Origin: a virus
Direction: 5' to 3' (one strand)
Length of the DNA stretch: 33,584 nucleotides
IMG/VR virus record: IMGVR_UViG_3300030117_002645
Span: 11,620 to 45,203 of that record
This document shows, in pieces, positions 3,532 through 30,983 of this stretch (position 1 is the first letter of the stretch; every line of letters begins with the position of its first letter). The notes below the pieces were generated by a model. The model saw only the letters and a program-made list of their open reading frames with translations. It was not told the origin of the DNA and searched no databases. A program made the translations under genes and the position numbers.

Positions 3532-4416
3532 ATGGCAAGTACATATACAGCGAATAGTGGTATAGAAAAGATAGGTGCTGGTGAACAAGCTGGTGCTTGG
3601 GGTACTACAACTAACAATAACTTTGATATAATTGATAGAGCCATAAATGGCGTAGGATCTATAACTTTATCTGGCACAACACATACTTTAACAACTAGCG
3701 ATGGCACACCATCAGAAGGTGGTAACAAAGTTTTAGTATTAGGTGGCTCTCCGTCTGGTACAAACACAATTACTATATCTCCAAACGATCAAGATAAAAT
3801 GTTTTTTGTTCACAATAGCACAAGTCAGACTGCTACATTTACACAAGGATCTGGTGGTAATGTGAATGTGCCTGCTGGTGCAAAAGCCTTAATATATGCA
3901 GATGGTGCAGGATCTGGTGCAGCGGTTGTAGATTTATTAGATAGTTTAACATTTGGTGGTACTAAATTAACTGCAACAGCATCAGAGTTAAATCTTATGG
4001 ATGGTGGCACAAGTGCTGGAACAACCGCAGTTGCAGCAGGTGATGGTATCGTAACTAACGATGGTGGCACAATGAGACAAACTACTGCTGCTACTTTTTC
4101 CACATATTTTAATGCTAATCTTGTTACAGTGCCAAGCCCTATAACATCAGCTACGCACACGCTAACACCAAGTGTAGCACAATCACATTATCAGAAAGTA
4201 GATACGTCTAGTAACAATGTAGCGTTAACTTTAGCGATAGGTAGTTTAGCTATAGGCCAATATATAATTGTAGATAAAACAAGCTCTTCTAACACATTAA
4301 CAATCAGTTACCCATCTAATTCACAAGGTGTAAGTCTTGGTAGTTCGGCATCTTTTGCAATAGCAATAAATCAAAATGGAAGTATATTTACTTTTGTAGA
4401 GTCAATTAAATATTAG
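3532..4416 (+). CDS. Phage fibre/tail protein
   Basis: A 294-residue beta-rich protein. The first 40 residues (GIEKIGAGEQAGAWGTTTNNNFDIIDRAI) match the start commonly seen in marine phage fibre proteins of this kind. A central module LTATASELNLMDGGTSAGTTAVAAGDGI is another widespread fibre motif (residues about 145-175). The C-terminal third is Ser/Thr-rich strands ending in a hydrophobic GSIFTFVESIKY. The start has GAGGTAAAC before ATG and lies only two bases after the previous stop. It probably belongs to the same adsorption apparatus as its neighbours. The exact place in the virion cannot be told from sequence. Confidence 0.75.
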   Translation: MASTYTANSGIEKIGAGEQAGAWGTTTNNNFDIIDRAINGVGSITLSGTTHTLTTSDGTPSEGGNKVLVLGGSPSGTNTITISPNDQDKMFFVHNSTSQTATFTQGSGGNVNVPAGAKALIYADGAGSGAAVVDLLDSLTFGGTKLTATASELNLMDGGTSAGTTAVAAGDGIVTNDGGTMRQTTAATFSTYFNANLVTVPSPITSATHTLTPSVAQSHYQKVDTSSNNVALTLAIGSLAIGQYIIVDKTSSSNTLTISYPSNSQGVSLGSSASFAIAINQNGSIFTFVESIKY

Positions 4417-13542: not shown

Positions 13543-16500
13543 ATGGGTACAATTAATGTAAAAAGTAATCTTACTGGTAAAACATACCCTATATTGATAG
13601 CTGGTAGCAGACCCACTGCAGCAGAAGACCAATTTATACGAAACTATATTGCTAAAGAAGATGGTGTTTTATTAGAAGCTCCTGAAACAGAAGAAGAAGA
13701 GGGAAGCCTTATTGATGTACCTAAAGGTATAGCAGGAGGGTTTTTTCAATCTTTAGCACAAGTACCCGGTGGTATAGCTTCATTAGGCGAGTCTGTGGGT
13801 GAAAAACTAGGCTTTGATGTTGCTCCCGGTGAAAGCGATATAGGCAGAGCTGCACAAGATTTTTCTAGAGGCGCAAGCAGAGCTATAGCAGATACTTTTG
13901 ATCTTAATGACAGTGCTTATAGTAAGTCAGGACAAGCATTTGGTTCTTTGGCATCATTCTTTATACCCGGCACAGCAGTTGCAAAAGGCGCATCTTTATT
14001 AGGTGCTGGAGCTAAAACTGTTGCAGGATTAGGATTTGGTACAGCGGCAACACAAGGTGCTGCAGTGCAATCGCAAGATCAAATGAATAGAATAGCTAAC
14101 TTTTTGGAACGTGGTGGTGTCATAGATGGTTCACAAAAAGCTGATGCTGTTTTGTTAAGTGGATTAGTTGGTACATCAGAGGCTATACCTTTCGCTGCTT
14201 TAAGCAGAAGTTTAGGTGCTGGATTAAAAATATTAAAAAAGGTTAGTAAAAAAGACAGAGATGCTGCTATAAAAACCATAGGTGGTAGAATAAGAAGAGG
14301 TTTAACTGCCGGTGTTGCTGAGGGAACACAAGAATTACTTGCAGGCATAGCTCAAGATTTAATTGAAGAGGGCATTTACAACCCAGATGTTCAGGTTGGG
14401 CAAAGTGCATACGATGACGCTGTGTATGGCGGAGGTGCCGGTGCTGCTTTAAGCCTTATACTAGACAGTATAAGAGGAAGAAAACTTAAGCAACTAGACA
14501 AAAAACAACAAGAATTAGATGATGATGCGGATCAAGCTGCTAGAGAAAATGCTAGTATGGCACAAAATGCTAAAGATTATCTAAAAACTCAAGAAGATAA
14601 ACAAGTAAAATTAATAGAGGGTCCGGGCCTTGGTTTACCTGCACCTGATACATCTATTATCTCACCATCTGGAGATCCTGTTACTGATATAGACAATCAG
14701 TCAGCACTTGATGCTCAACAAAATCAAAAAAGAAAAAATACTGAAGAGACACTTGATGCTGCAAAAGAAGCTAGAACTCCATATAGTCCTGTAAAAATAG
14801 AAAATCTACCACAAGAAGAGGCGTTTAAAATACGCAAACAAAGAATTGAATTAGGTAAATCTATACCTGTTGATGATCCAGTTACAATACAAGAATTAGA
14901 GGATGTGGTTGGCAAACAAGCTGCTGATAGAGAAAGATTTAATCAAAAACCTATACTAAATAAAAAACCCGAAGAGTCTGTTGATCCAAGAGTATCAGAG
15001 TTTAATGACAAAATATTAAAACAAAAAATAATAAATAGAGCGTCAACAAAAAAAGTATATTCTTCTGTATTTAATGAAAAAATATCTGATGAAAATGCAG
15101 ATAATATTTTAGTAGATTTATTATCTTCTGGTGTTTTGCAATATGATGGAAAAGGTAAGTATTCTTCAAAAAGTAAAATAGACATTAATTTAGATTTTAT
15201 AGATCAAGCTAGTGCTTTGTCAGAAAGGGCAAGGCAAATTAGAGATGCGGAAAATAAATTAAGAAAGCAACAAGAGCAATTTGTAAATGACCCTGTTAAC
15301 TTTGAAACATTAAATCAACAGTTAGATATATTACAAAGAAGATACAGTGATGTGCAGTTAGAGGCTTTTAATTTAGAAAACAAAGCAAATCAAGCTGTAG
15401 AAGGCCAACAAACAATAAAAGCAAGAAGAATAGCCCCATCACTTGCACCTAAAAAGGTCTTTGATCAAGCTCCTAAAACAAAAGAAACTCCAGAATATGT
15501 CCTAAAACAAAAACGTGTGCTTGATGCTCTTAGAGCAGAGCTTAATAGGATAGGTCTTACTGATGTTAGATTAGAAGGTAAACCTCTATTAGATCAGGTG
15601 CAGCTTACAGAAGATTTAGCTAGAGGACAGGATATAGGCATTACCGAGGGCATACAAGAGGTATCACCTGACGGTAAACGCATCATAGCATTGGCTATGG
15701 AAATATACGATCCTAATATGACTGATGCTGAATTAGAAGCTAAGTTAGCCAGTGTTATGAATCATGAAGTTATTCATGCATTGAAAAGTCTAAATGTATT
15801 TACAGAACAAGAATACGACATACTTACAAGAGCGGCTATGACTAGAAAGTATGTTAAGAGATCAAAGGGCAAAGATACTACTAGAAGTTACACTTATTAC
15901 GAAAGAGCTAGTCATGCTTATATGCGGACCGGTATGCCAGAGGATCAGATAATTGAAGAAGCTATTGCAGAAATGTATAGAGATTATACTGACAACAAAC
16001 TTAAACTTGGCGGTAAACCTAAGAGTCTATTTGACAGAATCGTTGCATTTTTTAAGTCTATTTTTGGTTCGCATGCGGATCAGGGTTTTACAGAAGCAGA
16101 TCAGATATTTGAAAACATAGGCACAACAGAGATAGAAAAGCAGATAGGTAGAAGAGATAGAAAGCCGGATGACCCTGAAACTGTTACTGAGCCACGTAGA
16201 TCACGTATAATTATTGATAGATTACCAGATTTACACAGAAATTCTATAGGACCCTTACCTATAGCGCATGTTGTTAAGTCTAGATATTTACAATCGATAG
16301 GTATGCCTAATACACGGCCTGATAGGTATGTGCAAGTAAATGAAGAGTTAGCTAGAAGAATAGCTAAAGACTTTGACGAAGCAAAGCACGATCCTACTAA
16401 TCCAGAAGTAATACAGGCATACAAAGCTATGGCTGATGAAACATTTAATCAATGGTTGTTTATAAAAGATACAGGAATACAAATAGAGTTTATTAAACCT

Positions 16501-19500
16501 AATCAAAGTAATCCTTATCCAAAGGGATCTAAAGATTTATTACAAGATATTAATAATAATCATATGTGGGTTTTCGCTACAGACGATGGCTTTGGCAGTG
16601 AAGCTATTACAGAGCAAGATATAGCAGAGAACCCATTACTACAGACAACTGGTGAGATTATTGATGGCCGTGATGTACGTTATAATGATTTATTTAGAAT
16701 AGTTCATGATTACTTTGGTCATGCGCTAGAAGGTGCGACATTTACAGCTAGAGGTGAAGAGAATGCATGGCAGGCACATAGTCGTATGTACACCCCGTTA
16801 GCTGCTAGAGCCATGACTACAGAAACAAGAGGACAAAATTCATGGCTTAACTACAGTGACGCTGTTGGAGACCACAATAGAAATAGCAAAAATAAAGCTG
16901 AAGAAACAATATACGCAGATCAAAAGATAACTTTACTATCTGATTTTGTGCAGACAGAGGGATTAGCTAATAATATAGAAGGAGCAGTAGATGAAAGAGC
17001 AATTCAAGAAGATGAACGATTTAGTGAAACAAGAGATGATGCAACTGACCGAGGAAGAGATGCTAGAAGAGACGGAAGACGGAGCGTTATACGAAGCACG
17101 ATTGAACCGACAAAAGAAAGGAGGGAACCTGAGTTATCTCCGCAAAGGACAGTCAAGCTAACACACTTCTCTCCTATCGAGGGCCTGCAAAGCATAGACC
17201 CAGAAAAACAAAGGTCAAATTTATTTATGCGGGGAGAGGAGAGGAGAAGAACTTTTGAGGGATATCCTGCTAGAAGCTATTTTGCTGTAAATATATCTGA
17301 TCCTAATGGTTATAATCCGGAACAAAATTTAGGAGATAATATATACGAAGTGGATGTGCCATATGAAGGTATGTATGATTGGGAGGCAGACCCAGAAAAA
17401 TTCAACGATGCAGCAAATGCAGAATTAGATAAAAATAGACCTGATATCAAAGACCCAACTGGTCGTGTTAATTACATAACTACTGCCAAAGAAAGGATGA
17501 TTAAAGAGTCTGGTGCTACGGGTTATTGGATAAATGACCCTTTCCGTGGAACTATGGCGGCTATGTTCTATGAGTTAAGAGTTCCAGAGACCTATCAAGC
17601 TAAGAAGTATGATCAGGCTTATAAAGATGGTATAAATCAAAAACGTGGTGTTGATGCAAAAAGAACCATGAGATCTAGAACAAGAGCAGTGGGACAGGAA
17701 CACACAGTTAGCACAAGATTTCCTACAGCAAAATCAAGAGAAGTAGATCCATCAACTAATCTATTATTTATAAATGGTGATATAATTAAAAATGATTCTA
17801 AGTTATCTGAAAAAGCCGCCAACTTAATTAAAGGATATAATTTATCAGGTAACTCAAAACTTTACGTAAACTTTTCAAATGAAGAAATAATCGAAGATCA
17901 CATACAGGCCATGACAAATAATATTTTGTTTGTTCATGATACTTATCCTGAACAGTTTAGAGAAAGATCTTCATTATGGTATGATGGCGCTAGAGATATT
18001 ATAGATAGGTTTTCAAAAACGTATAATTATCCTCCTGAAGTAGTGGCCGCTGCCATAGCAACCCAATCACCACAAAAAGATTGGTACATGAATGTTTCTT
18101 TAGCAGAGCGTGTATTAGATATAAGCAGAAATCATGGCAATAAAGAATTTACACCAGAGATGATGGAAACTGCAAAAAGGATTTATAGTAAACCTGTATA
18201 TAAAGAAGCATTAAATTATATTAGTAATCCTAAAAGAAACTCTACCAATTTAGATAATTTAAATCATTCTTTGCATAAGGCGATGTGGATTAGAATATTT
18301 GATGAGACATATAATGATAGAGGTCATAGAATAATAACACCTGAGGGTCAGTTTTTAGATTATGCAAGAAAAAAAGATGGAAACAAAAAACTTACAGGCT
18401 GGGGTACAAATAAGGAAATTTCCTCAGCAGTACAGGCTTTAGAGTTAAAAGGTGATCAATCCTTACAACAAATATCAATAATATTAGGGGATAGGCATAA
18501 AGTAAGAAGTTTTTATAACAATATGATATCACCAATGTCACCTGATGGACACTCTACAATAGATACGCATGCTGTAGCAGTAGCTTTTTTGAAACCTTTG
18601 AGTGGCAAGTCTGTAGAAGTTGATCATAACTTTGGTGTTTATACAGGAGAGGGTAGGTCAAAAATATATGGTGTAATACCTAATTCTTCTATTACAGGTG
18701 CTAGAGGTATGTATGGATTAATTGCTGATGCATATGCTAGAGCAGCAGAGCAAAGAGGCGTATTGCCAAGACAAATGCAATCAATAACATGGGAACCAAT
18801 AAGAGGATTATTTCCAGATACATTTAAAAATCAAAAACAAAATGTAGAAAAAATAAATTCAATTTGGGACTCATATATTGACGGTGGATTAACTTTAGAT
18901 CAAACAAGACAGGAGATAATAAATGCTACCCCAGATGGATTTACGGAACCAAGTTGGGCAAGACCCTCTGATACAATATCTCAATTCAGTAGGGATGCCA
19001 GTTACGAGACAGAATTATCTAGACCTTATGTTTCCGGAAGGAATACCGGAGATGACACCGGAGCTGGAGGAGACTTTACCGGAACACCTGAGACTAGACG
19101 CTCAAGAATAAGAGCAACTCCATCTAGTGAAAGGCAAAGACAAGCACAACAGAATGATCGTGATATTGCACAAGCCCAGTTAAATATTAGATACGATAAT
19201 TTAACTGGTTTATTAGCAAAAGGATTAAAAATTATTCCTGAAAAATTACTCTTTGGTAGAACAAGGGCGGAGGCTGCACAAAGGATAGTGCAAAAATATC
19301 AAGATTCTTTTCAACCTGTTGGCGCAATGATGGATGAGTTGCGCAATAAGGGCTACACAATAGCCGATGCTATGGACCCTTATCTAAGAGAGGTAAATTC
19401 TTCAGGTATTATTGGGGACAAAATATCTGATTTAGAAGAGACAATAGTTAAGCCTCTTATAGAAGAAGCAAGAAAAATTAATATTTCAGAGGCTAAATTA

Positions 19501-22026
19501 GAAGAATTAAAAAATGTCTCTGCTAGAGCCGCTGCGCAGTCACAAGATGAAGGATATATAAAAAGAGCATTAGAAGTTTCTATAGACGAAAAGTTAGCAT
19601 TAATTGATGCCTATCTTTATGCTATGCATGCGAAAGAAAGAAACGCACAAATACTTCAAGAATATCAAAGAGGTTTAGGCTCTGGTATGTCAAATGCTGA
19701 GGCAGATGCAATATTAGATTGGTTTGATAGCTTAGAGCAAAGCAATAAAGATGTTTTTTTGGCAGTTGATCGTTATGTAAAAAGAATAATTGAAAGTACT
19801 AATAATATTAGATATGAAAGCGGCTTAATAGATCAGGCAGAATTTGATGGTAATAAAGCAAGATTTAATCATTATGTGCCTCTTCGTGGTGATTTAGATC
19901 AAGATCAAGAGCTAGAAGATGATAGGAAGAATGTAAAAAGAAGAACTGTTAATTATTTTGGCGCATTAGGCAAAGAAGATATTAAGGCTAGAGGTAGAGG
20001 GGCTAAATACGCAGAAAATATATTAGCATCTGTAGTTGCGCAGAATCAAAGAGCAATAGATAGATCAGAAAGAAATAAAGTAGGACAAGATCTTTTAAGA
20101 TTGTTAAGAGGTCAAGAGGAACAATCTGATGGTAGTGTGGCTATAAACGATTCTTTGGCTACAGACTTACAACAAAACTTTGCTGAAATAGTAGATAAGG
20201 AAGATCCGAATGACCTATTACAACTTGTGGTAAAAGAAAATGGTCAAAAAGTTTACGTAAACTTTTACAGAGAAGCTTTAGCCAGAGCGTTTAAGCATCA
20301 TTACGAGCCTCAAACTAGCCATGTATTATTTCAGGCTTTGTCTAAGTTAAATAGATTTTTATCAAATGTTAATACATCTTATAACCCAGCCTTCGTTATT
20401 CCAAACTTTGCAAAAGACTTAGAGACAGCTTTGATTAATATACAGCAACATGATGCTGAGGGTATAACAAAAGAGATTGTTAGAGATGTGGCTGGTGCTA
20501 TTAATGGCATAAGGAAAGTGTTGAGAAATAATGATGATACTAGTTTTTGGTCACAAGAATATAATAAATTTGTAAAAGCAGGTGGAAAGAACGCTACTAA
20601 CATGATGGGTACAGTTCAAGATCAAATGGAAAACTTGAACAAACTATTACAAGAAATTAATGACACAACTTCTTTAGGAATAAATCGTAACAATTTCTTT
20701 CTAAAGAAAGGTAAAAGTCTATTAAAATTCTTGGAAGATTACAACACAGTTATTGAAAATGGTGTTCGTGTTGCCACATTTACTAATTTGAAAAAAAGAG
20801 GTTTTACTGATGCTAGAGCTGCTGAAGCAGCGAGGAATGTCACAGTAAACTTTGCCAAAGGTGGTGAAGATAAAGTTTTTATGAACTCTTTATTTTTATT
20901 TTATAATGCCTCTGTACAGGGCAGTATGGCTATATTTAATGCGGCTCGTAAATCATCTAAAGTTAGAAAGTTACTAGGTGGATTAATTATATATGGTATG
21001 CTTCAAGATCAACTTATGGCTTTCTTTAGAGACCCTGATGATGAAGACGAGCCAAATCCATACGATAAATTAAATGATTATGTTTTAGAGCATAATTTAA
21101 TATTTGGAACATTCGGTTTAACTGAAGAAAAATTTATTTCAATACCATTAGCCTATGGACTTAACATGCCATTTAATTTAGGCAGAGCATTAAGTCGCTA
21201 CACACGAGGCGAATACACATTTGGTCAGATGGCAGATACAGTATTTGGTACAACTATGGAAACATTATCTCCATTTGGTGCAATAGAAAATGTAGAAACA
21301 TATCTTCTGCCTACATCTGTTAAGCCATTAGGCGAAATGTTTATTAATAAAAATTATAGAAATGATCCAATATATAAAGAAACGCCTATGTACTCTTCTT
21401 CGACTACACCGGATTCTTATACGCATTGGAGCAACACAGGTGCATTGTCTAAGTTTATAGTTCAAACAATAAACGATTTAACCGGTGGCGATGAGGTAGA
21501 AAGTGGTTTGATTGATGTTTCTCCGGATACAGTAGAATATTTTTATGAGTATGTCATTGGAGGTGTTGGAGCTTTTGTTGGCAGATCTGCAAACCTAGTT
21601 TATGAAGTGATACCGGCTATAGCCTCCGGAGACTTCGAGGGTAACTTAGAAAATAGAATACCTTTTGTTAGGAAGGTTATTAAACAGCCGTCAGAAAGAG
21701 TTGATACACAAAATTATTTAGAGAAGAGAAAAGAGCTATTCACGATATTTTCTAGATTAGATCTTGCTAGACGAAGAGGAGACAGCGAGGCTGTACGTCA
21801 GCTTGTGTCTAGATACGATGACGAGGTTCGTATATATGGTAGATTTAAGGCTTTGGATAACGCAAGAAACAGATTATTGAGGCAAATCAGAGAGTTAGAG
21901 CGAAATCTTCGACTGTCAGATGATGTCAGACAAAAACTTATTAAATTACGTAGAGAACGAATACAAGAGATCATGAAAAAAGGTATTCAGTTAATGAGAA
22001 GTGTAGGCATAAGACAAACTGCATGA
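13543..22026 (+). CDS. Giant multidomain phage protein (2827 aa): metallopeptidase motif, HDYFGH domain, ART-like domain, LPD38-like C-terminus
   Basis: Start ATG has AAAGG upstream. Domains by residue: 55-200, Gly/Ala-rich hydrophobic segment, possibly membrane-active. 700-870, HEVIH zinc motif (741-745) with a downstream EEAIAEMYRDY (about 805-815), as in gluzincin-type peptidases. 890-1145, a phage domain centred on HDYFGH (1055-1060). 1205-1350, LTHFSPIEGLQSIDPEKQRS and downstream strands, ADP-ribosyltransferase-like. 1400-1800, an unnamed domain with AAIATQSPQKDW and DTHAVAVAFLKPLSG. 1870-2827, helical region typical of large polyvalent phage proteins (LPD38-like; YNPAFVIPNFAKDLETALIN; NASVQGSMAIFNAARKS). 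Such giants are usually packaged and ejected with the genome. Charged linkers (PETVTEPRRSRI, GTPETRRSRI) separate the domains, and two of them overlap separate small genes in another frame. It is probably a fusion; post-translational or translational breaks cannot be excluded. Confidence 0.8.
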   Translation: MGTINVKSNLTGKTYPILIAGSRPTAAEDQFIRNYIAKEDGVLLEAPETEEEEGSLIDVPKGIAGGFFQSLAQVPGGIASLGESVGEKLGFDVAPGESDIGRAAQDFSRGASRAIADTFDLNDSAYSKSGQAFGSLASFFIPGTAVAKGASLLGAGAKTVAGLGFGTAATQGAAVQSQDQMNRIANFLERGGVIDGSQKADAVLLSGLVGTSEAIPFAALSRSLGAGLKILKKVSKKDRDAAIKTIGGRIRRGLTAGVAEGTQELLAGIAQDLIEEGIYNPDVQVGQSAYDDAVYGGGAGAALSLILDSIRGRKLKQLDKKQQELDDDADQAARENASMAQNAKDYLKTQEDKQVKLIEGPGLGLPAPDTSIISPSGDPVTDIDNQSALDAQQNQKRKNTEETLDAAKEARTPYSPVKIENLPQEEAFKIRKQRIELGKSIPVDDPVTIQELEDVVGKQAADRERFNQKPILNKKPEESVDPRVSEFNDKILKQKIINRASTKKVYSSVFNEKISDENADNILVDLLSSGVLQYDGKGKYSSKSKIDINLDFIDQASALSERARQIRDAENKLRKQQEQFVNDPVNFETLNQQLDILQRRYSDVQLEAFNLENKANQAVEGQQTIKARRIAPSLAPKKVFDQAPKTKETPEYVLKQKRVLDALRAELNRIGLTDVRLEGKPLLDQVQLTEDLARGQDIGITEGIQEVSPDGKRIIALAMEIYDPNMTDAELEAKLASVMNHEVIHALKSLNVFTEQEYDILTRAAMTRKYVKRSKGKDTTRSYTYYERASHAYMRTGMPEDQIIEEAIAEMYRDYTDNKLKLGGKPKSLFDRIVAFFKSIFGSHADQGFTEADQIFENIGTTEIEKQIGRRDRKPDDPETVTEPRRSRIIIDRLPDLHRNSIGPLPIAHVVKSRYLQSIGMPNTRPDRYVQVNEELARRIAKDFDEAKHDPTNPEVIQAYKAMADETFNQWLFIKDTGIQIEFIKPNQSNPYPKGSKDLLQDINNNHMWVFATDDGFGSEAITEQDIAENPLLQTTGEIIDGRDVRYNDLFRIVHDYFGHALEGATFTARGEENAWQAHSRMYTPLAARAMTTETRGQNSWLNYSDAVGDHNRNSKNKAEETIYADQKITLLSDFVQTEGLANNIEGAVDERAIQEDERFSETRDDATDRGRDARRDGRRSVIRSTIEPTKERREPELSPQRTVKLTHFSPIEGLQSIDPEKQRSNLFMRGEERRRTFEGYPARSYFAVNISDPNGYNPEQNLGDNIYEVDVPYEGMYDWEADPEKFNDAANAELDKNRPDIKDPTGRVNYITTAKERMIKESGATGYWINDPFRGTMAAMFYELRVPETYQAKKYDQAYKDGINQKRGVDAKRTMRSRTRAVGQEHTVSTRFPTAKSREVDPSTNLLFINGDIIKNDSKLSEKAANLIKGYNLSGNSKLYVNFSNEEIIEDHIQAMTNNILFVHDTYPEQFRERSSLWYDGARDIIDRFSKTYNYPPEVVAAAIATQSPQKDWYMNVSLAERVLDISRNHGNKEFTPEMMETAKRIYSKPVYKEALNYISNPKRNSTNLDNLNHSLHKAMWIRIFDETYNDRGHRIITPEGQFLDYARKKDGNKKLTGWGTNKEISSAVQALELKGDQSLQQISIILGDRHKVRSFYNNMISPMSPDGHSTIDTHAVAVAFLKPLSGKSVEVDHNFGVYTGEGRSKIYGVIPNSSITGARGMYGLIADAYARAAEQRGVLPRQMQSITWEPIRGLFPDTFKNQKQNVEKINSIWDSYIDGGLTLDQTRQEIINATPDGFTEPSWARPSDTISQFSRDASYETELSRPYVSGRNTGDDTGAGGDFTGTPETRRSRIRATPSSERQRQAQQNDRDIAQAQLNIRYDNLTGLLAKGLKIIPEKLLFGRTRAEAAQRIVQKYQDSFQPVGAMMDELRNKGYTIADAMDPYLREVNSSGIIGDKISDLEETIVKPLIEEARKINISEAKLEELKNVSARAAAQSQDEGYIKRALEVSIDEKLALIDAYLYAMHAKERNAQILQEYQRGLGSGMSNAEADAILDWFDSLEQSNKDVFLAVDRYVKRIIESTNNIRYESGLIDQAEFDGNKARFNHYVPLRGDLDQDQELEDDRKNVKRRTVNYFGALGKEDIKARGRGAKYAENILASVVAQNQRAIDRSERNKVGQDLLRLLRGQEEQSDGSVAINDSLATDLQQNFAEIVDKEDPNDLLQLVVKENGQKVYVNFYREALARAFKHHYEPQTSHVLFQALSKLNRFLSNVNTSYNPAFVIPNFAKDLETALINIQQHDAEGITKEIVRDVAGAINGIRKVLRNNDDTSFWSQEYNKFVKAGGKNATNMMGTVQDQMENLNKLLQEINDTTSLGINRNNFFLKKGKSLLKFLEDYNTVIENGVRVATFTNLKKRGFTDARAAEAARNVTVNFAKGGEDKVFMNSLFLFYNASVQGSMAIFNAARKSSKVRKLLGGLIIYGMLQDQLMAFFRDPDDEDEPNPYDKLNDYVLEHNLIFGTFGLTEEKFISIPLAYGLNMPFNLGRALSRYTRGEYTFGQMADTVFGTTMETLSPFGAIENVETYLLPTSVKPLGEMFINKNYRNDPIYKETPMYSSSTTPDSYTHWSNTGALSKFIVQTINDLTGGDEVESGLIDVSPDTVEYFYEYVIGGVGAFVGRSANLVYEVIPAIASGDFEGNLENRIPFVRKVIKQPSERVDTQNYLEKRKELFTIFSRLDLARRRGDSEAVRQLVSRYDDEVRIYGRFKALDNARNRLLRQIRELERNLRLSDDVRQKLIKLRRERIQEIMKKGIQLMRSVGIRQTA
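16991..17161 (+). CDS. Embedded small gene 1 in the first linker of the giant ORF, 56 aa
   Basis: ATG at 16991 with AAGGAG at 16979-16984 and a 6-nt spacer, an ideal Shine-Dalgarno arrangement. The frame is +1 relative to the giant ORF and ends at TAA (17159-17161). The 56-residue product starts MKEQFKKMNDLVKQEMMQ, continues TEEEMLEETEDG, then LYEARLNRQKKGGNLSYLRKG. It is a well-formed amphipathic, charged small protein rather than random reading. Short phage proteins ending (Y-EARLNRQ)-(GG-LSYLR) are ones I remember from marine phage genomes. In the main frame the same DNA encodes a low-complexity Arg/Asp/Glu linker (DERFSETRDDATDRGRDARR), as expected if that frame is only spacer. Function unknown. 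Confidence 0.7.
   Translation: MKEQFKKMNDLVKQEMMQLTEEEMLEETEDGALYEARLNRQKKGGNLSYLRKGQSS
17856..17875. repeat. Palindrome copy inside the giant ORF (AAAACTTTACGTAAACTTTT)
   Basis: 19 of 20 bases match the consensus AAAACTTTACGTAAAGTTTT; the only change is G to C at position 16. It lies in the giant ORF and encodes KLYVNF near the start of the fourth recognisable domain, so it may be tolerated or functional in place. Confidence 0.7.
18923..19111 (+). CDS. Embedded small gene 2 in the second linker of the giant ORF, 62 aa
   Basis: ATG at 18923 follows AGGAG (18911-18915) by 7 nt. The frame is again +1 to the giant ORF. The product has QYLNSVGMPVTRQNYLDLMF, then PEGIPEMTPELEETLPEHLR. The pattern DP-I-YL---G-P-TR(E/Q)NYL-LA/M---PE--T-E-E--LPE-L is one I recognise from short stand-alone phage proteins of unknown function. 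In this frame all four prolines followed by Glu use CCG and create CCGG, the rule followed by the right-arm genes, which suggests this frame is the one under constraint. The main frame here gives a Gly/Thr/Asp-rich linker (SGRNTGDDTGAGGDFTGTP). The ORF ends 19109-19111 (TAA). Very likely a real overlapping gene. Confidence 0.8.
   Translation: MLPQMDLRNQVGQDPLIQYLNSVGMPVTRQNYLDLMFPEGIPEMTPELEETLPEHLRLDAQE
20247..20266. repeat. Palindrome copy inside the giant ORF (AAAAGTTTACGTAAACTTTT)
   Basis: A perfect 20-bp palindrome. It differs from the consensus at two positions (5 and 16), which changed together so that symmetry is kept. It encodes KVYVNF in the LPD38-like region. The compensatory change argues that symmetry itself matters. 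Confidence 0.75.
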
Positions 22027-29675: not shown

Positions 29676-29709
29676 AGTCTACTACTGTAGGGGGTAATGT
29701 AAGAGTAAT

Positions 29710-29961
29710 TTATTCGCCATTATTACTATTATAAATAGAATTAACTGCTCCTTTAATAACCTCAGTTGGTTTTCTAACTACTCTTCCAACATCAATTTCA
29801 CGAATGGCTCTAGGATCGTCTTCAAATCTTTCATCCATTCCTAATTCTTTTGGTGTCATTTTAGCATTACGTTGATAGAGTTCACGTTGTAAATCTACTA
29901 TTGAATTACGATACCGGTGACCTTTAGATCTACCTTTTATTTTGCTATATGTTGTTGTCAT
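29710..29961 (-). CDS. Small basic protein, 83 aa
   Basis: AAGGGG lies 8 nt before the ATG. The product starts TTTYSKIKGRSKGHRYRNSIVDLQRELY and contains MTPKELGMDERFEDDPRAIREIDVGRVV. The first 35 residues are very basic; the rest is mixed. No family is recognised. It is the last gene of the leftward operon and ends about 160 nt after the strong terminator of the opposite unit. An Arg encoded by CGG after CAC creates a CCGG site. Confidence 0.6.
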   Translation of the reverse strand: MTTTYSKIKGRSKGHRYRNSIVDLQRELYQRNAKMTPKELGMDERFEDDPRAIREIDVGRVVRKPTEVIKGAVNSIYNSNNGE

Positions 29962-30255: not shown

Positions 30256-30447
30256 CTATTCTTTAAAATAGATACTGTAAAAACTTACAAGTATCATGGT
30301 TAAACCAATTGATCCTATAAATAACGTAAACAGTATGCCCTCTACACTCTGCATATAATATCCATTAGGATCAGACAAAGTAACTAATGACATAAGCATA
30401 ACACAAATGCCTAAGAGAAATAATAATATTCTATCTAATTTATCCAT
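30256..30447 (-). CDS. Two-TM membrane peptide, 63 aa
   Basis: ATG preceded by GGGAG with a 7-nt spacer. The protein has two hydrophobic segments, ILLFLLGICVMLMSLVTL (residues 7-24) and ILFTLFIGSIGLTMILVSFYSIYF (38-61), separated by a short polar loop (SDPNGYYMQSVEG). It is a small integral membrane protein. It could be a host-membrane modifier, a superinfection protein or a holin/antiholin-like peptide; nothing decides between these. Its start lies within the end of the upstream paralogue gene (8-bp overlap), which also carries its Shine-Dalgarno site. Confidence 0.7.
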   Translation of the reverse strand: MDKLDRILLFLLGICVMLMSLVTLSDPNGYYMQSVEGILFTLFIGSIGLTMILVSFYSIYFKE

Positions 30448-30790
30448 CGTCTTTCTCCCATTCTTCTATCTGCTCTAAAAGATTGGTTGCACACTCGTGT
30501 CTTCCATCGAGTATACCAAGTTCATGTCTGTCCGGCTCAGCATCCCAAGTTGGATGAGATTTTCTGACATCAGAGATCTCTCCTCTAAGCCAAGTTTTAA
30601 TTTTATTTGTAATAAAATTATCTCTAAAGTTTTCCGGATTTAATTCAGCACCATACTTTTCCAATTCGTAATATACATTGTTAATCTGATCTTTTATGTA
30701 TACCTCAGTATGTATCAATGCTGTTAATTTACCTTGTAACTTAGATATTTTTACTAGCTTTTTATTTTTAATAAATTCTTTATTAAGCAT
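30440..30790 (-). CDS. Paralogue A of a tandem pair, 116 aa
   Basis: ATG has GGGAG 7 nt upstream, inside the end of paralogue B. The first ~55 residues form a helical region (KKLVKISKLQGKLTALIHTEVYIKDQINNVYYELEKYG). The last ~65 residues contain LNPENFRDNFITNKIKTWLRGEIS and HELGILDGRHECATNLLEQIEEWEKDDG. The end is clearly homologous to that of the upstream paralogue (ELGILDGR-E-A--L---I--WEKD). No known family is recognised. The paralogue with the extra N-terminal helical region may be the ancestral or the extended form. Confidence 0.7.
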   Translation of the reverse strand: MLNKEFIKNKKLVKISKLQGKLTALIHTEVYIKDQINNVYYELEKYGAELNPENFRDNFITNKIKTWLRGEISDVRKSHPTWDAEPDRHELGILDGRHECATNLLEQIEEWEKDDG

Positions 30791-30983
30791 TATCTTTCTC
30801 CCATTTCTTGATTACATTTTTTAATTGCACAGCCATTTCATATCGACCATCAAGAATACCTAGTTCTCGACTATCAACATCGTCTTCATGGCTGTGTGAT
30901 TTATAAGTTTGTATCTCTGAAGATATTTCTTTTTTAATCACAGCTATAAGCTGATTAGACAAATCATCCGGATTAAATCGCAT
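30783..30983 (-). CDS. Paralogue B of a tandem pair, 66 aa
   Basis: ATG at 30983 (MRFNPDDLSNQLIAV) is supported by GGGAG with a 6-nt spacer; it lies one base beyond the upstream stop. It is shorter than paralogue A but aligns along almost its full length: FNPDDLSNQLIAVIKKEI with LNPENFRDNFITNKIKTWL, and RELGILDGRYEMAVQLKNVIKKWEKD with HELGILDGRHECATNLLEQIEEWEKD. Function unknown. The two proteins may form a heteromer. Confidence 0.75.
   Translation of the reverse strand: MRFNPDDLSNQLIAVIKKEISSEIQTYKSHSHEDDVDSRELGILDGRYEMAVQLKNVIKKWEKDNA

Follow-up and report, generated by a model that had tools for sequence, protein, structure and literature searches.

A likely slot of exchangeable small-gene cassettes, each ending in the start signal of the next gene, in an uncultured phage

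In a phage contig, the DNA between genes U and T most probably represents a variable slot of gene cassettes, each of which appears to carry the start signal of the gene behind it. The two small genes found there, A and B, are in all likelihood old lineages of one modular family that came to lie side by side via exchange, not by a recent tandem duplication.

The DNA analyzed, referred to as the window, comprises 33.6 kb of a 45,203-base virus record, with the A/B region on the minus strand. At one end of the window, genes V, U, A, B, and T form a compact run on this strand (Table 1). Searches of 50,697 isolate phage records with B, the A-type family consensus, and U were without a match, whereas Pelagibacter, Roseobacter, and cyanobacterial phages gave partial matches to the tail-fibre-like protein of this phage. 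Thus, the source is an uncultured, tailed phage, probably of marine origin. For U, no useful family match was obtained in Pfam or PHROGs. The window also contains a single gene for a 2827-aa protein (13543-22026); its C-terminal third matches several giant, functionally uncharacterized phage proteins (phrog_14770, E 1e-108; phrog_616; phrog_10691).

Table 1. Features of the gene run around the slot (window positions).
Feature	Position	Strand	Description
Gene V	33416-32151	-	Metallopeptidase-like/VWA; Pfam DUF2201_N + DUF2201; upstream neighbour of U
Gene U	32151-30985	-	388 aa; left-hand anchor of the putative slot
Gene A	30983-30783	-	66 aa; NPDD head and DSRELGILDGR...KKWEKDNA module
Gene B	30790-30440	-	116 aa; long N-terminal helix and C-terminal module, variant EPDRHELGILDGR
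Tail of A, TGGGAGAAAGATAATG	30788..30803	-	Last A codons, SD-like GGAG, ATG of B
Tail of B, TGGGAGAAAGACGATG	30445..30460	-	Last B codons, SD-like GGAG, ATG of T
Gene T	30256..30447	-	63 aa; two stretches look hydrophobic by eye; conserved anchor on the right of the putative slot

The A protein terminates in KKWEKDNA and the B protein in EEWEKDDG. The corresponding DNA reads TGGGAGAAAGA(T/C)(A/G)ATG in both tails, with GGAG located 7 nt before the ATG of the next gene. Coordinates and sequence of this shared end, together with the start signal placed in it by the original prediction, were confirmed. The genes are co-directed and overlap by 8 nt at both A/B and B/T. Within the 33.6-kb window, TGGGAGAAAGA occurs twice, both times on this strand, with none on the other strand; the tails of A and B are two copies of a direct repeat flanking B. 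The last codons of U hold GGGAG (30994-30990) ahead of A, and the three successive joints U-A, A-B, and B-T look alike. A ribosome that finishes A would sit near the GGAG serving B, and likewise one that finishes B near the GGAG serving T. From this arrangement we infer translational coupling from A to B and on to T.

Relatives were retrieved by scanning viral contigs with A, B, and U and with alignments of T and of the family; every relative is a metagenome contig. Including the window, the set comprised 62 contigs. A total of 64 family copies lie on 58 of these contigs, and the end is complete in 62 of the copies; collapsing near-identical copies left 36 non-redundant ones. Four contigs have no family copy, namely L045, L084, and L146, which stop before or at the slot, and L059. 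A close group of ten contigs, again including the window, has a complete slot and a U gene 93.7-98.7% identical to that of the window. An eleventh contig with a close U (L023) stops inside the slot.

Among the ten close contigs, seven slot contents were found: A+B (window, L001), B (L002), a shortened relative of a 75-aa gene followed by B (L003, hand reading), A (L005), A+B' (L006), C+A (L007, L008), and B' (L036, L038). The flanking U and T genes of L005, which has A alone, and of L002, which has B alone, are 97-99% identical to those of the window. In L003 (3780-4010), the stretch before B resembles in one frame the 75-aa DAY(E/K)EKYG gene of L009 and L079; by hand reading it lacks the first residues and may start with GTG, and it is possibly a shortened or decaying cassette. 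Counting copies in relatives, a check proposed along with the original prediction, gave a single copy in 26 of 30 distinct complete slots and a pair in the other 4 (L047 and L048 recounted by hand). Outside this count stand L129 with two copies and L059 with none.

The close relatives differ by whole genes, with the breakpoints at the SD/ATG gene boundaries. Up to the ATG, the A-T joint of L005 has 1 mismatch in 35 nt to the A tail of the window, and from the ATG on it has 0 mismatches in 53 nt to the window T, with the shared TGGGAGAAAGA in between. The tail word of L005 ends in TA, that of B in CG. As judged from these bases, the single-copy contig L005 is a hybrid across the TGGGAGAAAGA repeat. 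The A-T joint of L007 gave the same hybrid picture with a few more differences. At the U-A, U-B, U-B', and U-C joints, the left sides are alike up to the ATG and diverge thereafter; one base just before the ATG alternates between T and A. In the window, the A and B genes have no exact word in common that is longer than 13 nt, and across pairs of A with B or B' the longest words measure 13-21 nt, some of them located inside the module rather than the tail. In L002, which is devoid of A, the overlap at the breakpoint is just about 5 nt. These joints suggest exchange by recombination at short shared sequences; because the joint repeat is short, homologous recombination at this place and illegitimate recombination with subsequent selection have about equal probability.

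A cassette as proposed would extend from its own ATG to the codons that hold the SD-like site for its successor, and would in most cases overlap the successor's ATG. Since each gene spans its own ATG to the next start signal, insertion or removal of a whole gene would spare the start signals of the neighbours, and cassettes could be gained, lost, or replaced at a joint with these signals undisturbed. The slot would then represent a natural experiment in which phage gene content changes without breaking the operon, and in which joints between relatives of 94-99% identity can be read base by base.

Tails with a start signal also occur outside the family. Two other slot genes, the 75-aa REKFN gene and the KRGY gene, have ends that hold an SD-like site for the next gene, and the family profile gave no match to these or to other genes preceding A-type copies. 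To this extent the shared end is widespread beyond duplication, which the original prediction had named as evidence against itself. The genes preceding A-type copies vary; they comprise U, REKFN-ending, KRGY-ending, and 109-aa genes as well as others, the 109-aa gene showing a helix-turn-helix match just below Pfam's cut-off. At 21 of the 22 distinct joints preceding A-type copies, GGAG, GAGG, AGGA, or GGGG lies ahead of the start. The slot without a family copy in L059 (1227-1856) contains the KRGY gene and then a 90-aa gene ending in EEDNEK, the tail of which has GGAGG ahead of T; in this contig U lies off the end, and the 1.6 kb before T are free of family copies.

The strongest alternative is ordinary phage gene packing with no exchange function, in which many genes of this phage simply begin within their predecessor and selection alone keeps the joints clean. 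It fits most of the data and needs no targeted recombination. In agreement, an SD-like motif lies inside the upstream gene at 14 of 30 same-strand joints of the window, a hand-picked sample evaluated by an automatic rule with uncurated starts, and SD-like motifs inside upstream genes are a widespread prokaryotic habit (PMC2784483). Ordinary packing alone, however, leaves unexplained the whole-gene differences between slots and the hybrid joints at 94-99% identity. We therefore consider it a serious but somewhat improbable account and retain the reading as a slot of cassettes.

The start signal of such cassettes was evaluated across the whole family. GGAG was present within the last 36 nt in 62 of 62 complete copies, compared with 456 of 9643 plus-strand ATGs in the fetched loci (family joints included) that have GGAG at about the same distance; the tail signal therefore appears to be more than chance. 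In 35 of the 36 non-redundant copies, a script located GGAG 4-10 nt ahead of the chosen next start; the 4-nt score of two B copies arose because the script chose an ATG in the same frame that precedes the likely start by three bases. Spacing from GGAG to ATG is mostly 7-10 nt, although the overlap ranges from 14 nt to none. For the 36th copy (L029), the script picked the T start, 42 nt further on; reading by hand placed GGAG 8 nt before a 17-codon micro-ORF, MIVEWWELPFDWENDYE. This micro-ORF (4192-4245) lies between a B-type gene and T and ends, as some family members do, in a WENDYE tail that leads into T; it may be a minimal start-signal relay or the remnant of a lost cassette. The frame following a family copy is T in most cases, and the others have 16 to 344 codons; taken together, these following frames show at least ten different beginnings by eye, and the short frames of 16 and 22 codons may not be genes. 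The earlier claim that each copy drives the gene after it thus holds for the placement of GGAG before the following frame.

Codon usage at the site points to a constraint on the DNA. The Glu codon of the tail site is GAG in all 32 non-redundant copies that have this Glu, whereas GAG accounts for 86 of 270 Glu codons earlier in the same genes and 11 of 31 later in the tail; at the conserved Glu residues of ELGIL and GRxE, it was found in 5 of 24 and 8 of 35 cases, respectively. The nominal P value of 1e-16 is overstated, as related phages were counted as independent, but the direction is uniform. A change from W to L in L025-L027 and L031 abolishes the protein motif and keeps GGAG. Likewise, four copies without W/L-E at the site retain GGAG, one after a shift of frame (L020), two with an extended tail (the second copy of L006, and L032), and one with a different end (L047). 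This codon choice and the exceptions in which the motif is lost and GGAG retained suggest that the DNA is kept rather than the peptide, and that the WE(K/N) protein end is largely a by-product of the start signal. The tails harbour a conserved Shine-Dalgarno-like site inside the upstream coding sequence that is under constraint at the DNA level.

Alternatively, the WE(K/N) end could be kept for protein function, with the ribosome-binding site being a coincidence of coding by TGG-GAG. W and E are common across the family, and in A they lie near the end of the second, confidently predicted helix. This explanation is very improbable in view of the exclusive use of GAG, the synonymous GAA being commoner elsewhere in the genes, the persistence of GGAG through frame change, W-to-L replacement, and tail extension, and a spacing to the next ATG that stays mostly steady while the overlap varies. 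With the DNA-level reading preferred, annotators should be aware that ribosome-binding sites can pass for conserved peptide motifs at the C-terminus.

Alignment of A with the C-terminal 67 residues of B gave 28 of 67 identities (42%, E 4e-12). The homology of A with this part of B, judged on the aligned residues, is real; A and B are paralogous as originally proposed, and the possibility that they belong to unrelated families, which would have counted against the proposal, was not borne out. AlphaFold2 modelled A as a helical hairpin (helices 8-29 and 38-65, mean pLDDT 85.4) and B as three helices (2-50, 55-77, and 88-114; mean pLDDT 85.1). By eye, the C-terminal module of the family is fused to at least six different N-termini. 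An N-terminal sequence M.IISS.YN.NEEECKIKT is joined to the module in L054 (2648-3001), and a similar sequence forms a separate gene without the module in L066 (2598-2831).

Neither A nor B gave a usable match in Pfam or PHROGs (best E 0.064); the match at this value, to a Polo-box, and weak PHROG matches were discarded as chance. A PHROGs search with ten relatives also gave no usable match, and one distant relative compared with isolate phages showed weak, unrelated matches alone. No family relative was confirmed in a scan of bacterial and archaeal genomes that relies on short peptide patterns. Foldseek comparison of the A model with the PDB yielded generic helical matches (best E 1.8), with no solved structure standing out. 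As a guess, A and B may serve as a small helical protein-protein interaction module or adaptor.

The module tree, which is based on few columns and has many unresolved forks, placed A copies (14 rows, support 97/99) and B/B' copies (7 rows, 92/97) in separate groups. A topology that forces the A and B copies of the window and of its nearest relative, L001, into one group was rejected (p-AU 2.9e-5); this group was chosen for the test once the tree had been seen. In none of the four array types (A+B, A+B', C+A, and the L129 pair) are the two copies sisters, although C and both L129 copies are on long branches and their places in the tree are unsure. A and B are thus not mutual nearest relatives, as copies from a recent tandem duplication would be. 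The original prediction had taken duplication of the unit in this genome as the event that gave rise to A and B and also copied the coupling signal, an account that now appears hardly credible: the two genes are adjacent, homologous, and alike at their ends, but their modules share 42% protein and 55.6% DNA identity, whereas within the close group identity to the window genes is 94.0-98.0% for A and 87.7-97.4% for B, they fall into separate clades, close relatives have A without B or B without A, and single-copy relatives have similar tails, too. The data imply an old duplication that founded the family, and the adjacency of A and B is better accounted for by exchange.

B itself is a mosaic. 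The B genes of the window and L002 are identical over the first 170 nt and nearly so over the last 45; the middle differs and resembles, in the window, the B' of L006 and not the B of L002. Although their N-termini differ, B and B' of the close group alike carry the variant EPDRHE motif where A is present (3 of 3; window, L001, and L006) and the canonical form where A is absent (4 of 4; L002, L003, L032, and L038). When viral contigs were searched with a degenerate form of the EPDRHE stretch, the L001 and L006 contigs alone were retrieved. Contigs with two copies had exactly one canonical D(S/A)RELGIL(D/S)GR copy in 6 of 6 cases (four array types), and single complete copies had the canonical motif in 40 of 50. 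With few independent cases, the pattern of one canonical copy is a lead and not a result; if it holds in more genomes, it would point to a specificity rule between co-resident small proteins. The idea that the variant lowers the DNA identity of B to A and thereby averts deletion was rejected, as the identity to A was 51-59% for B/B' living with A and 56-62% for those without A, a small and overlapping difference.

A more far-reaching reading takes the slot as an enzyme-free cassette array, in which cassettes with the outgoing start signal at the 3' end could be interchanged at any joint, and co-resident family members would be kept apart in specificity. We regard it as doubtful. If true, the motif would set the choice of partner, and duplicates would have to diverge in order to coexist.

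A second variable patch was observed downstream of T (window about 29680-29779, minus strand; 5147-5596 in L001), with about 455 bases more in L001, L003, and L005 than in the window. In L001 the patch holds a gene for a cell wall hydrolase (Pfam Hydrolase_2, E 2e-27). Given the two hydrophobic stretches of T and the hydrolase patch nearby, our guess is that T might be a lysis protein.

The slot is, as far as its joints can tell, a new case of the known boundary mosaicism of phages. For HK620 and the lambdoid phages, Clark et al. in 2001 reportedly proposed short conserved boundary sequences as sites of homologous gene exchange. A short conserved sequence at gene boundaries is likewise present here; unlike in the lambdoid phages, A, B, and U are without a match in isolates, and the boundary lies inside the coding end of a paralogue family. 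With regard to coupling, 13 of 14 overlapping gene pairs tested elsewhere proved to be coupled, and in 4 of 5 E. coli pairs reinitiation fell when the SD sequence was removed (PMC6728339). The overlaps named in the abstract of this 2019 paper are ATGA and TGATG, compared with 8 nt in the phage, for which coupling is deduced from the sequence.

The closest counterpart is the gene pair 67/68 of mycobacteriophage Island3, which has common 3' ends of 60 bp, corresponding to 18 C-terminal residues; in the closely related Brujita, the single copy is a hybrid of 67 and 68, and the authors infer recombination at the shared end (PMC3029335). Neighbouring genes with a shared 3' end and a single-copy relative that is a hybrid (L005) are likewise found here. 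In contrast to the Island3 pair, the shared end of A and B is shorter and holds the SD-like site of the next gene, it recurs across the whole family and in many slot contents, and A and B are homologous over about 65 residues. The slot would thus join two known things, boundary mosaicism and embedded start sites, in a way that may allow phages to stay compact yet changeable.
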